Positions 30,336-37,376 of a stretch of 64,000 nucleotides of DNA are shown here, piece after piece. The notes under the pieces are model-generated. The model was not told where the DNA came from, ran no database searches, and saw only the letters and a list, made by a program, of their open reading frames with translations. Position numbers and translations under genes: made by a program. Every line of letters starts with the position of its first letter. Positions within the stretch are counted from its first letter, which is position 1. This DNA is from Deltaproteobacteria bacterium (GTDB lineage Bacteria; Myxococcota_A; UBA796; GCA-2862545): the NCBI GenBank assembly GCA_006226595.1, contig SBGP01000109.1:1-64000 (forward strand), read 5' to 3'.

Positions 30336-32111
30336 TCAGTTCCCGTTCGCCTCGCCGGGGCTCGCGACCACCCAGGGCTGAGCCCAGGTGTTCACGTTCG
30401 GGCTGTCGGTGACCGAGGACCGGTGCCAGCTGCTCTCGAGCGTGCCGTCGCCGGGGTTGGCGTTGCGCTCCATGCTGTACACGAAGCCGTTCTCGGGGCC
30501 GCCCACGAACGCGGGACCGCCGTCGCCAGCGCGGTCGATCTCGGCGCCCTCGGGATCCTTGAGGATCAGCTCCAGCGCGCCGTCCTTGAGGTACAGCCGG
30601 GACTGGCGGTCGTCGTTGAAGCTGTTGAGCACGAGGTCGCCGTTGCGGTAGGCACTCGGCTGGTCCTGCGGCACGCCGTCCTGGTACTCCTCGAGCACGT
30701 GGTCGAGGATCAGGTAGGTCGACTGCGGGCCGATGCGCGCGCCCGGAGGCAGGCCGACGATGAAGTCGTCGGGGTTCGCGATCTGCCAGAGATCGAGGTT
30801 GATCTCGCGGTCGGTGAGGTTGCGCAGCTCGATGAACTCGTCGGTGCCGTCGAGGTTGTTCTCGTGCACGCCGTACCACTGGACCTCGTTGATCACGAGG
30901 TCGCCGGGCGCGACTTCACCCTCGGAGACGCGCTCCCCGCCAGCCGTGCGGCCCTGGCCCCACAGCAGCTGGAAGTACTCGTCGTACATCCGCGCGACGC
31001 GCTCGCCCTTGAGCACGAGCAGGAACTCGTCGTTGGACACGGTCGCCGAGGAGGACCAGTTGAACGAGCCGGTGATGACCACCGGGTTCGCGCCGTACGC
31101 GTCGATGACCATCGTCTTGCTGTGCAGACGACCGCCGCCGGCCTGGTAATCGCCCGGCAGGCGCCCGTTGTCGTTGCCGTCCATGCGCACCGGCACGCCG
31201 GCGCCGAGCAGGCGGAACACCTCGTGGTACTGGCGGTTCGAGTGCAGCTGGGACTGGTCGATGACGCCGGCCACGGAGCGGCGGGTGTTGTTGTTGAACG
31301 GGTCGAAGGCCTGATCGGCGATGCCGTCAGCCGCGTTCTTCTCCTCGAACTCTTCCTGCTTGCGGATGAACGCCGAGCCGACCTGGTCCTTGGTGAACGC
31401 GAAGATCGTGAACCGCACGCTCTCTTCGGCGGCGTCGACGTACTCGAGGATGCGGCCCATCGCGTCTTCGTTGGGCGAGAACCACACCTCGACCTCGGTG
31501 TCGTCGACGGTGTAGCTGCGACCGTTGAAGTACTCGACCTTGTTGTGGCCGAACACGCCCTCGAACATCTGCTCGAACTCGGCGGTGAAGTCGGCGGCGA
31601 CCGGGGGCGAGTCGATGACCACGAAGTTGTTCGAGTTCCGACGCAGGTCGGTGTCGGTGATGTTCGCGGTGCCGCAGAACACGAAGCGCCGGTCGATGAC
31701 GAAGAACTTGTCGTGCATGATGTGGGCGTTGTTGCCCACCACCATCGGCACCTGGCGGTCCTCGAGCTGCTGGTAGCCCGAGTTGTACAGGTGGCCGGCG
31801 TCACCGACGAAGCGCACCTTCACGCCGCGGTCGTAGGCGCGAATGACCGCATCGATCACCCGCTGGCGACCGAAGCCCATCACCGCGATGTCGAGCTCGG
31901 CCTCGGCCATCTCGATCATGTCGACGAGCACGTCCTCGGCATCCGGCTCCCACAGGTTCTCGGGGCGGGTACCGGGCTCGTTGAAGAAGAAGTCGAGACG
32001 CCCGCCGCGGGTCATGTCGTAGTCGGCCTGAGACGGCGCGGCGTTGCAGCCCGCGAGCATCGCGAGCGCGGCGCCCGCAAGGCACAGTCGCTTGGTGAGT
32101 GCCTGGATCAC
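30336..32111 (-). CDS. Phospholipase D-family lipoprotein with C-terminal lamin-tail domain
   Basis: 591 aa. GTG start after GGAGG, overlapping the previous stop by four bases. The lipobox AMLAGC gives Cys22. Two complete HKD motifs are present: HDKFFVID at 133-140 followed by GTAN, and HSKTMVID at 330-337 followed by GSFN. These give the full PLD/Nuc-type active site, which forms a phosphohistidine intermediate and cuts phosphodiesters of nucleic acids or phospholipids. Residues about 425-565 are a lamin-tail-like domain (LVINEVQWYG, EFIELRNLTD), frequent in extracellular nucleases. It is the last gene of a six-gene export operon. Nuclease or phospholipase activity cannot be told apart from sequence. 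Confidence 0.9.
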   Translation of the reverse strand: MIQALTKRLCLAGAALAMLAGCNAAPSQADYDMTRGGRLDFFFNEPGTRPENLWEPDAEDVLVDMIEMAEAELDIAVMGFGRQRVIDAVIRAYDRGVKVRFVGDAGHLYNSGYQQLEDRQVPMVVGNNAHIMHDKFFVIDRRFVFCGTANITDTDLRRNSNNFVVIDSPPVAADFTAEFEQMFEGVFGHNKVEYFNGRSYTVDDTEVEVWFSPNEDAMGRILEYVDAAEESVRFTIFAFTKDQVGSAFIRKQEEFEEKNAADGIADQAFDPFNNNTRRSVAGVIDQSQLHSNRQYHEVFRLLGAGVPVRMDGNDNGRLPGDYQAGGGRLHSKTMVIDAYGANPVVITGSFNWSSSATVSNDEFLLVLKGERVARMYDEYFQLLWGQGRTAGGERVSEGEVAPGDLVINEVQWYGVHENNLDGTDEFIELRNLTDREINLDLWQIANPDDFIVGLPPGARIGPQSTYLILDHVLEEYQDGVPQDQPSAYRNGDLVLNSFNDDRQSRLYLKDGALELILKDPEGAEIDRAGDGGPAFVGGPENGFVYSMERNANPGDGTLESSWHRSSVTDSPNVNTWAQPWVVASPGEANGN

Positions 32112-33238
32112 AGGGCACCTCCGCGGGCGAAGTAGTCCTCGAACAGGGGCGCGAGCTCGTCGAGCAGGCCCTCCCGCTCGTTGTAGTCGGTGAGCACCCA
32201 CAGGGCGCCGTCGATGTACTGGTCGCTCGTGATCTCCACGCCGCTGTACGTGCGGGTCGCCGAGTACAGGTCGTGGGTGAGGATCATCGCCTTGCGCTCG
32301 CGCATGCGCTGGTCGACCGGCGAGGGCGCGTAGTCGAAGAGCACGAAGGTCGGCATCACCTCGTCCTGAACCTGGCGCTTCTGGACGTTGGGCGTGTTGT
32401 TCGTGAACTCACGCGACAGCGGCGCGTAGGAGGTCGCGTAGTTGGGGCCGACGACGACGCGCACGTCGAAGCCGGCGGCCGCCTTCTGCTCGAGCGCGAA
32501 GATCAGGCCCTCGTTGGCGAGGTCGTCAGTGACCACCCACACGCTACCCATCGCCCCGTAGGTGGAGTCGATGATGCGCTTGGTGACGCGCTCCTGCGGT
32601 CCGAGCCACAGCTCGAAGTTCGCGGCGGCATCGATGGGGTACATCCACCGGGAGTCGGCCACGGACTTGGCAGGCGCCGAGAACGCGGTGAGCGCGGTGG
32701 CGTCCACGCCGCCCATGAGCTGGTTGTGCTCGGTGAGCAGGTCGCGGATGAGGTCTTCACCGCGGCCTTCGAGATGCAGGCGCGTGCCGTCGGCAAGGCG
32801 ACCGGCCTCGGTGCTGGTCACGAACCGGCGCTTGTCGGCCACCGCGAAGTTGTGGCTCATGATCGTCTTGTCCGACGACCACGACACGTCCGCGTTGAGC
32901 GCGAAGTCGAAGTAGCCCACGCCCATGTCGGTGTGGGAGACCGCGACGCCCGCCGCCTCGAGGTCGGCCACCGCCTGGTTCGCGGAGTCACCGTCGATGA
33001 CGAGCTCGACGAGCACGCCGCGCTGGTGGGCCGCGAGCAGTGCGTCGGTGACGGACGGGTCCTCGACCGAGGAGATCGCGATGTGCAGGCTCGACTCGGC
33101 GCCGTCGATCAGCGACACGAACGGAGCGTTCGCCTCGCTGGCCGTGGCCGGGCGGCTCAGCTGCACGCTGTGGAACATGTCCTCGACGCCGGGGGCGGCG
33201 TTGCAGGCACACAGCAGAAGAAGAGGGAGACTACGCAT
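32108..33238 (-). CDS. Degenerate phospholipase D-like lipoprotein
   Basis: 376 aa. The ATG shares its A with the preceding stop (TGATG). The lipobox LLLCAC gives Cys12. The fold matches the PLD gene downstream, but the first catalytic motif aligns as SHNFAVAD where the neighbour has HDKFFVID (His and Lys lost, Asp kept). The second aligns as ERKAMILT (His and Asp lost). It is therefore probably a non-catalytic partner or substrate-binding paralogue. Tight coupling to the intact enzyme suggests the two proteins work together, perhaps as a heterodimer replacing the internal pseudo-dimer of single-chain PLDs. Confidence 0.85.
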   Translation of the reverse strand: MRSLPLLLLCACNAAPGVEDMFHSVQLSRPATASEANAPFVSLIDGAESSLHIAISSVEDPSVTDALLAAHQRGVLVELVIDGDSANQAVADLEAAGVAVSHTDMGVGYFDFALNADVSWSSDKTIMSHNFAVADKRRFVTSTEAGRLADGTRLHLEGRGEDLIRDLLTEHNQLMGGVDATALTAFSAPAKSVADSRWMYPIDAAANFELWLGPQERVTKRIIDSTYGAMGSVWVVTDDLANEGLIFALEQKAAAGFDVRVVVGPNYATSYAPLSREFTNNTPNVQKRQVQDEVMPTFVLFDYAPSPVDQRMRERKAMILTHDLYSATRTYSGVEITSDQYIDGALWVLTDYNEREGLLDELAPLFEDYFARGGAL

Positions 33239-36459: not shown

Positions 36460-36509
36460 GCGTGGAGCCTCCGGGGGCGCCCACACGAGCGCCGCCGTGC
36501 GTGCAGATC

Positions 36510-37376
36510 CTAGTAGAACGCGAACCAGTCGAAGTTCACGAGGTTCAGCTGCGGGGCGTTGCTGAAGTTGCCCATCGGCGCGTACACGTCGACGCAGTCA
36601 CCGACGAAGAACTGCACGCTGTTGCCCGCGCGGTACACGATGTTCTGGCCACCGTGGTTGAGCGTGTAGCAGGTGCTGCTCGAGCCACAGGCGCCGTCGT
36701 CGCTGGTGATCTCGCCGTAGAGGTGGATCATGTGCGACTCGAGGGCGACGGCGTCGATCTGCGTACCGGTGACGTCCGGGGCGTAGACGGTCTGGCCGGT
36801 GTCCGCCTGACGGCTGTCGACGGTGAAGTTGGCCAGGTCGTTGACCTGCAGGTTGCCGAAGTAGTTCTCGAGGCCCACGACATCGAAGGACACCACGTCG
36901 CCCGAGTTGAGCGGCACGGTCACGTCGTCGGTGTTGCCGGCGAAGAACAGCTGGATGTGCGCGGCGGTGTTGACGTCCTGGACCCAGAACTCGGTGCTCG
37001 GGTCGCGGAAGTCCGCGGCGGAGACGACGGCGCCGGTCACGGTGATCGGCGTGGTCAGGGTGACGGACTCGCCGCTGGTGGTCGGCATCGCCGCACGAAC
37101 CGCCGCGAGGTTCGCGTCATTCACGTAGTTCGTGGTGGTCGTGATCTGCGGGAAGTTCACGTCCGGGTTGCCGACGCTGGTCCAGTCGGTCGGCGGCGTG
37201 CCGCAGCCCTGGGGATCGGTGTCGGTGTCGGTGTCGGTGTCGGTGTCCGCATCGGTGTCCGCATCGGCATCGGTATCGGTGTCGGTCTCGATGGTGTCGT
37301 CGGTGGTCGGGGCCGGACGGCAGCCGCCGAACACGGCGAAGGCCAGCAGAGCAGTGGCGGTGAGACGAAGCGTCAT
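36510..37376 (-). CDS. OB-fold-like lipoprotein with Asp/Thr stalk, first gene of the operon
   Basis: 288 aa. The lipobox AVFGGC gives Cys near 19, followed by a stalk of alternating Asp with Thr/Ala (about 25 residues). The mature domain has two modules with an OB-fold-like pattern: ITVTGAVVSA...EFWVQDVN...SGDVVSFDVVG and IHLYGEIT...CYTLNHG...VGDCVDVYAP. A single Cys pair (ACGSSSTCY) may form a disulfide. The stalk would lift the domain away from the membrane. It is 50 bases ahead of the second OB-like gene, and transcription probably starts in the 245-bp gap upstream. Confidence 0.75.
   Translation of the reverse strand: MTLRLTATALLAFAVFGGCRPAPTTDDTIETDTDTDADADTDADTDTDTDTDTDPQGCGTPPTDWTSVGNPDVNFPQITTTTNYVNDANLAAVRAAMPTTSGESVTLTTPITVTGAVVSAADFRDPSTEFWVQDVNTAAHIQLFFAGNTDDVTVPLNSGDVVSFDVVGLENYFGNLQVNDLANFTVDSRQADTGQTVYAPDVTGTQIDAVALESHMIHLYGEITSDDGACGSSSTCYTLNHGGQNIVYRAGNSVQFFVGDCVDVYAPMGNFSNAPQLNLVNFDWFAFY
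37207..37300. repeat. Asp-Thr/Asp-Ala dipeptide repeat region
   Basis: GGTGTC/GCATCG-type hexamers on the plus strand (about 14 units) encode the stalk of the first lipoprotein of the PLD operon. Confidence 0.85.

Follow-up and report, generated by a model that had tools for sequence, protein, structure and literature searches.

A conserved six-gene operon of exported proteins in Myxococcota_A that groups phospholipase D, OB-fold and lamin-tail modules with a predicted outer-membrane barrel

Organisation of the locus

The window analysed here is a stretch of 64,000 nucleotides from a Deltaproteobacteria bacterium (GTDB lineage Myxococcota_A; UBA796; GCA-2862545), corresponding to positions 1 to 64,000 of contig SBGP01000109.1 in assembly GCA_006226595.1. 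It contains an operon of six open reading frames on the minus strand that occupies positions 37376-30336 and is read leftward from G1 to G6. The operon combines a phospholipase D (PLD) with a PLD-like partner, two OB-type and two lamin-tail modules and an outer-membrane barrel, and is the subject of this contribution. The six genes are:

G1, 36510..37376, minus strand: lipoprotein of 288 amino acids; OB-like region, judged by its profile relation to G2
G2, 35629..36459, minus strand: lipoprotein of 276 amino acids; predicted tandem OB fold
G3, 34005..35600, minus strand: outer-membrane beta barrel of 531 amino acids, modelled with about 18 strands and no plug
G4, 33238..34005, minus strand: lipoprotein of 255 amino acids; lamin-tail domain
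G5, 32108..33238, minus strand: lipoprotein of 376 amino acids; PLD fold that lacks the catalytic motif (pseudo-PLD)
G6, 30336..32111, minus strand: lipoprotein of 591 amino acids with a GTG start; two PLD halves and a C-terminal lamin-tail domain

Gaps of 50 bases (G1/G2) and 28 bases (G2/G3) are followed by overlaps of 1 base (G3/G4), 1 base (G4/G5) and 4 bases (G5/G6), and these values, like the leftward direction of all six genes, agree exactly with a preliminary description of this DNA. That description had also counted five lipoproteins and one barrel, and so did we: G1, G2, G4, G5 and G6 each start with a signal peptide ending in a cysteine, and G3 is modelled as a barrel. The lipidation cysteine is invariant or at least 90% conserved among the relatives of G1, G2, G4 and G6. 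The lipobox of G5 reads LCAC in the window copy and is of the ordinary type in most G5 relatives. The coding status of the six genes is beyond doubt because the set is kept in dozens of genomes. A scan for promoters and terminators gave nothing above chance.

Domains of the six proteins

G6 is, as judged from its motifs, the only protein of the operon with a complete active site. It matches PLDc_2 (2.4e-38) and, in its C-terminal third, the lamin-tail family LTD (1.2e-9), and both HKD motifs are intact in 44 of 44 complete copies. The nearest solved relatives in profile comparison are Zucchini/PLD6 (4.5e-20), Nuc of Salmonella (1.4e-18) and NucT (1.6e-15), followed by the bacterial phospholipase 7e0m (1.4e-12) and the exonucleases PLD3/4 (1.8e-6). 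Since the nearest of them are mostly nucleases, a nucleic-acid phosphodiesterase is favoured, short of proof. G6 did not reach the cut-off of the NucT equivalog (48.8 bits, cut-off 297) nor that of the cardiolipin synthase equivalog (14.7 bits, cut-off 290).

G5 likewise matches PLDc_2 (4.3e-10). The HxK(x4)D (HKD) motif, however, is present in none of its 45 copies, and the position of the catalytic lysine is taken by F, Y, W, V, M or A in all 33 aligned copies. No lamin-tail match was obtained for G5. G4 matches LTD above the cut-off (3.2e-9). Two lamin-tail proteins had been predicted earlier; this is correct for G4 and for the C-terminus of G6 but not for G5, which is a pseudo-PLD.

The AlphaFold2 model of G2 (predicted local distance difference test score, pLDDT, 88) shows a tandem OB fold comprising approximately residues 40-179 and 179-276. 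Its top Foldseek and VIA matches are OB-fold proteins with Z values of up to 10.2, among them Ten1, RPA, Teb1, POT1, SSB, HIN-200 and the anticodon domains of tRNA synthetases, so that many of the best fold matches are nucleic-acid-binding OB proteins. DUF5818 is matched by 18 of 28 G2 relatives. G1 has no Pfam match of its own. In this protein the signal peptide and Cys19 are followed by an acidic spacer rich in aspartate and threonine (approximately residues 24-56) and then by the OB-like region; a conserved pair of cysteines lies in the motif CGGSSxC. The assignment of the latter region comes from profile comparison with G2, in which hhalign gave a probability of 98.5% over 181 columns spanning both domains. 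The first two proteins had been suspected to be OB-like from the beginning, and the model of G2 and the profile relationship of G1 are in agreement with that assumption.

The barrel protein G3 was modelled with a pLDDT of 83. The nearest solved fold is AlgE (Z 26.6 over 363 residues at 3.9 Å), and the Occ/OprD porins come next with Z values of 20-24. Five of 31 G3 relatives match the Pfam family Alginate_exp (best 5.3e-7); the window copy has no Pfam match at all, neither to Alginate_exp nor to Plug. Sequence searches of solved structures with the profiles of G1, G2 and G3 yielded nothing useful.

Besides the relationship of G1 and G2, hhalign also related G5 to the PLD part of G6 (99.8%) and G4 to the C-terminus of G6 (99.7%). 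On the level of profiles the operon thus consists of three homologous pairs (OB/OB, lamin-tail/lamin-tail and pseudo-PLD/PLD) and one barrel, and because of these homologies it looks as if it had been built by duplication.

Conservation and genomic neighbourhood

A search with G6 found close relatives, at approximately 56-68% identity, in another 27 genomes of the order. With the G3 profile (E ≤ 1e-10), 61 of the 379 genomes sampled from the phylum were positive and were separated from the non-matches by a clean break; G3 is present once per genome, except where the gene is split at contig ends. Named carriers include Lujinxingia vulgaris (Bradymonadales) and metagenome bins labelled as Myxococcales. 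All 46 inspected loci with G3, including those of Bradymonadales-type genomes, have the genes on the same strand and in the same order, down to approximately 31% identity, and an alternative order was found in none of them. All six genes were recognised in 30 of these loci; in the remaining 16 the locus runs into a contig end, or G1 (or a partial gene) stays below the threshold. G1 is the least conserved of the six genes, being missing or too divergent for recognition in a few relatives. The order extends over nine family-level groups of the phylum and over numerous relatives of the predatory myxobacteria, which settles the question, raised by the preliminary description, of whether it might be unique to this genome.

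Pairwise identities among the six proteins correlate at 0.68-0.90, as co-inheritance predicts. The genes that flank the operon differ between families, and the unit therefore consists of these six genes. Chance cannot account for this conservation. An order that is kept down to approximately 31% protein identity, across many families and without shared flanks, very probably belongs to one machine, and we infer that the six proteins form one complex.

Within the family of the window G3 is present in 20 of 21 genomes; the sole exception is another species of the same genus, in which either a recent loss or an assembly gap may be the reason. Short G6 patterns, scanned across all species genomes, were found at nine loci only. 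A plasmid search for G6 yielded partial PLD matches only (best 25-32% identity), none of which spans 80% of the protein. Several genomes of the order encode PLD lipoproteins that are 30-37% identical to G6 and lack the rest of the operon (loci L067-L072), and at locus L053 G2 and G3 are separated by approximately 2.7 kb, between 3517 and 6235. Elsewhere in the genome of the window, a 1030-residue open frame (G000:C36:177811-180297) has five lamin-tail domains.

Shared neighbours are limited to the family of the window and comprise a PP2C gene and a few local ones. The PP2C-type phosphatase (37623-39122, plus strand) is divergent from G1 and is an upstream neighbour in several genomes of this family, not beyond it. 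On the other side, and convergent with G6, lies a gene (26898-30284, plus strand) for a protein of 1128 amino acids that has six MopE metal-binding motifs and ends in a MYXO-CTERM-like tail (GCGCETSGRGAWWLAIPLLLGARRRRA). At 39926-40265 (minus strand) a small signal recognition particle RNA adjoins two tRNA-Ser genes. The region 43132-47687 (minus strand) encodes, with operon-like spacing, a TonB-dependent-receptor-like protein of 921 amino acids (Plug, CarboxypepD_reg) and two lipoproteins of approximately 295 amino acids that have no Pfam match.

Possible function and comparison with known systems

We propose, with about even confidence, that the operon encodes a phosphodiesterase machine of the cell surface, most likely a nuclease, that is joined to its own outer-membrane channel. 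The lipoproteins are presumably exposed at the surface and their substrate is presumably a nucleic acid. G1 and G2 would capture the strand, G1 doing so on its long acidic spacer. G6 would cut the polymer via a phospho-histidine intermediate, and G5 would be its partner, with either a structural task or that of holding the substrate. The complex would be kept together, or fixed to the membrane and the barrel, by the lamin-tail domains of G4 and G6, and G3 would let the short, anionic products cross the outer membrane, presumably in the direction of uptake.

The nuclease is favoured over other phosphodiesterases because the relatives of G6 are mostly nucleases and the cardiolipin synthase score is far under the cut-off, because nucleic-acid-binding OB proteins are frequent among the best fold matches of G2, and because lamin-tail, OB and phosphodiesterase modules together also make up the extracellular nucleases ExeM and Xds, which depend on their OB region. 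A channel is favoured because the model of G3 resembles channels for anionic substrates. Located beside a surface nuclease it would most simply be a product channel, by analogy to OmpK of Vibrio cholerae, through which the nucleotides freed by Xds and Dns cross the outer membrane (PMC6746945). Cultured Bradymonabacteria are predators in which purine and pyrimidine synthesis is partly missing (PMC7460792), and their order contains carriers of the operon, which we count in favour of the proposal.

Several observations weigh against this proposal. Strong acidity is common to all six proteins (isoelectric points of 4.1-4.7; net charge of -24 for the PLD part of G6), a property unfavourable to unspecific binding of DNA. 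In the predicted lumen of G3 the charges are mixed, acidic positions being slightly more frequent than basic ones, where the facing of residues was guessed from sequence alternation and not from coordinates; a basic lumen, looked for as the sign of an anion channel, was thus not seen. OB folds also bind oligosaccharides and proteins, and substrates change readily within the PLD superfamily: cardiolipin hydrolase is another name of PLD6, and the matches of G6 include a bacterial phospholipase. No transporter, nucleotidase or nucleotide phosphatase is a conserved neighbour of the operon, nothing regulatory or metabolic beside it hints at phosphate or nucleotides, and no tandem Pho-box-like repeat was found upstream of it, for which reason we rejected Pho regulation. 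The half-site TGTCA is more common upstream than in simple shuffles (16 compared to 6.8), a control that ignores dinucleotides. The genome of the window has both purE and pyrB, and a need for nucleotides is therefore not a general explanation. Within the order, purE (over the cut-off) is absent in 7 of 28 carriers and in 9 of 35 non-carriers, which is no difference. The absence of pyrB in 8 of 28 carriers compared to 3 of 35 non-carriers is confounded, since all eight belong to one family. Nucleotide auxotrophy was accordingly rejected as the driver.

Lipids, teichoic-acid-like polymers or polysaccharides may also be the substrate. If G6 cut phospholipid head groups or glycerophosphate polymers, the proteins would constitute a phospholipase or phosphodiesterase machine directed against prey membranes or teichoic-acid-like polymers, and the channel would import the freed head groups. 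The PLD superfamily does hold phospholipases, with 7e0m among the profile matches of G6, an association with membranes has been proposed for bacterial lamin-tail domains (cited in PMC6085458), and the carriers include members of the order of the cultured predators. We nevertheless consider this unlikely, since the closest relatives of G6 are nucleases, the cardiolipin synthase models remain far under their cut-offs and it is not obvious what two OB proteins would do on a lipid. A role in protection or housekeeping, in which foreign DNA or phage genomes are degraded or the own biofilm DNA is remodelled and the barrel is an anchor instead of a transporter, appears distinctly improbable. It could invoke the weak match of G6 to DrmC models of the DISARM system (best 1.7e-13) and the control of biofilm DNA in Vibrio by Xds and Dns (PMC6746945), but G6 scores only 42.7 bits against the NCBIfam DrmC cut-off of 133, DISARM or other defence genes are not located beside the operon, and all parts have export signals. 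Least likely is an exopolymer system, with G3 as the exporter of an anionic polymer in the manner of AlgE and with lipoproteins that bind this polymer, trim it and organise it on the cell surface. In its favour, no solved fold is closer to G3 than AlgE, some relatives match Alginate_exp and OB folds are known to bind oligosaccharides. The conserved unit, however, lacks genes for a polymerase, glycosyltransferase, epimerase or scaffold, polyuronates would not be an expected target of a PLD, and the Occ uptake porins are nearly as close to G3 in fold.

The preliminary description had assumed that the parts of an extracellular nuclease are distributed over separate envelope proteins with a channel for uptake of the products. 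This is still the best single explanation, with modules split relative to ExeM and Xds, in so far as DNA and the direction of transport are taken as what we infer. If a nuclease with its own channel is indeed present, it would show by what means predatory and predator-related bacteria collect nucleic acids at their surface, for which a dedicated outer-membrane complex was not found in the searched literature. The pair of enzyme and pseudo-enzyme and the division of a known nuclease architecture into subunits lead to clear and testable predictions, and some carriers, Lujinxingia for example, have been cultured.

Of the known systems, ExeM of Shewanella oneidensis and Xds of V. cholerae are the most instructive. 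Both have lamin-tail, OB and nuclease domains in a single chain, so that the earlier comparison to a split extracellular nuclease was apt, and membrane association has been reported for these nucleases; deletion of the OB-like or of the catalytic domain abolished the activity of ExeM, the OB domain is needed in Xds, and the lamin-tail domain is partly dispensable (PMC6085458, PMC6746945). The likeness, namely lamin-tail, OB and phosphodiesterase modules outside the cytoplasm, holds only at the level of the whole operon. ExeM and Xds employ an endonuclease/exonuclease/phosphatase domain, whereas in the operon the modules are spread over lipoproteins and the catalyst is a PLD. No Exo_endo_phos match was found in G1-G6; the genome has such matches outside the operon, at places other than those of its LTD matches. 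The operon furthermore adds a pseudo-PLD partner and a dedicated barrel, in contrast to the OmpK of V. cholerae that is described as a separate component.

Nuc, NucT and Zucchini (PLD6), the closest solved sequences to G6, share with it the PLD fold and the HKD and GxxN motifs. They are, however, proteins of approximately 155-220 amino acids that represent one PLD half, whereas G6 combines two HKD motifs in a single chain with a lamin-tail domain and a lipid anchor. AlgE and Occ (OprD) share the 18-stranded barrel fold with the model of G3 but only approximately 10% sequence identity; alginate genes are not nearby, and the lumen of G3 is of mixed charge. From DISARM the operon differs by the low DrmC score and by the absence of defence genes from the conserved unit.

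Sus-type glycan systems combine surface lipoproteins, an enzyme and an outer-membrane transporter, and the general plan of the operon is alike. The differences to these and other TonB-dependent systems are that G3 has no plug match and belongs to no Sus-type family and that the modules are OB, lamin-tail and PLD. Tentatively, and at somewhat less than an even chance, we regard the operon as a plug-free counterpart of Sus: a fixed six-gene system in which an active PLD and a pseudo-PLD, two OB and two lamin-tail modules would surround an AlgE/Occ-like barrel, cut nucleic acids at the surface and send the fragments inward. A search of the literature, which did not reach subscription papers, found nothing on this module combination. 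ExeM and Xds provide precedents for each part and for the set of modules, whereas the arrangement as an operon of several lipoproteins with its own barrel and a pseudo-PLD is apparently undescribed in that literature.

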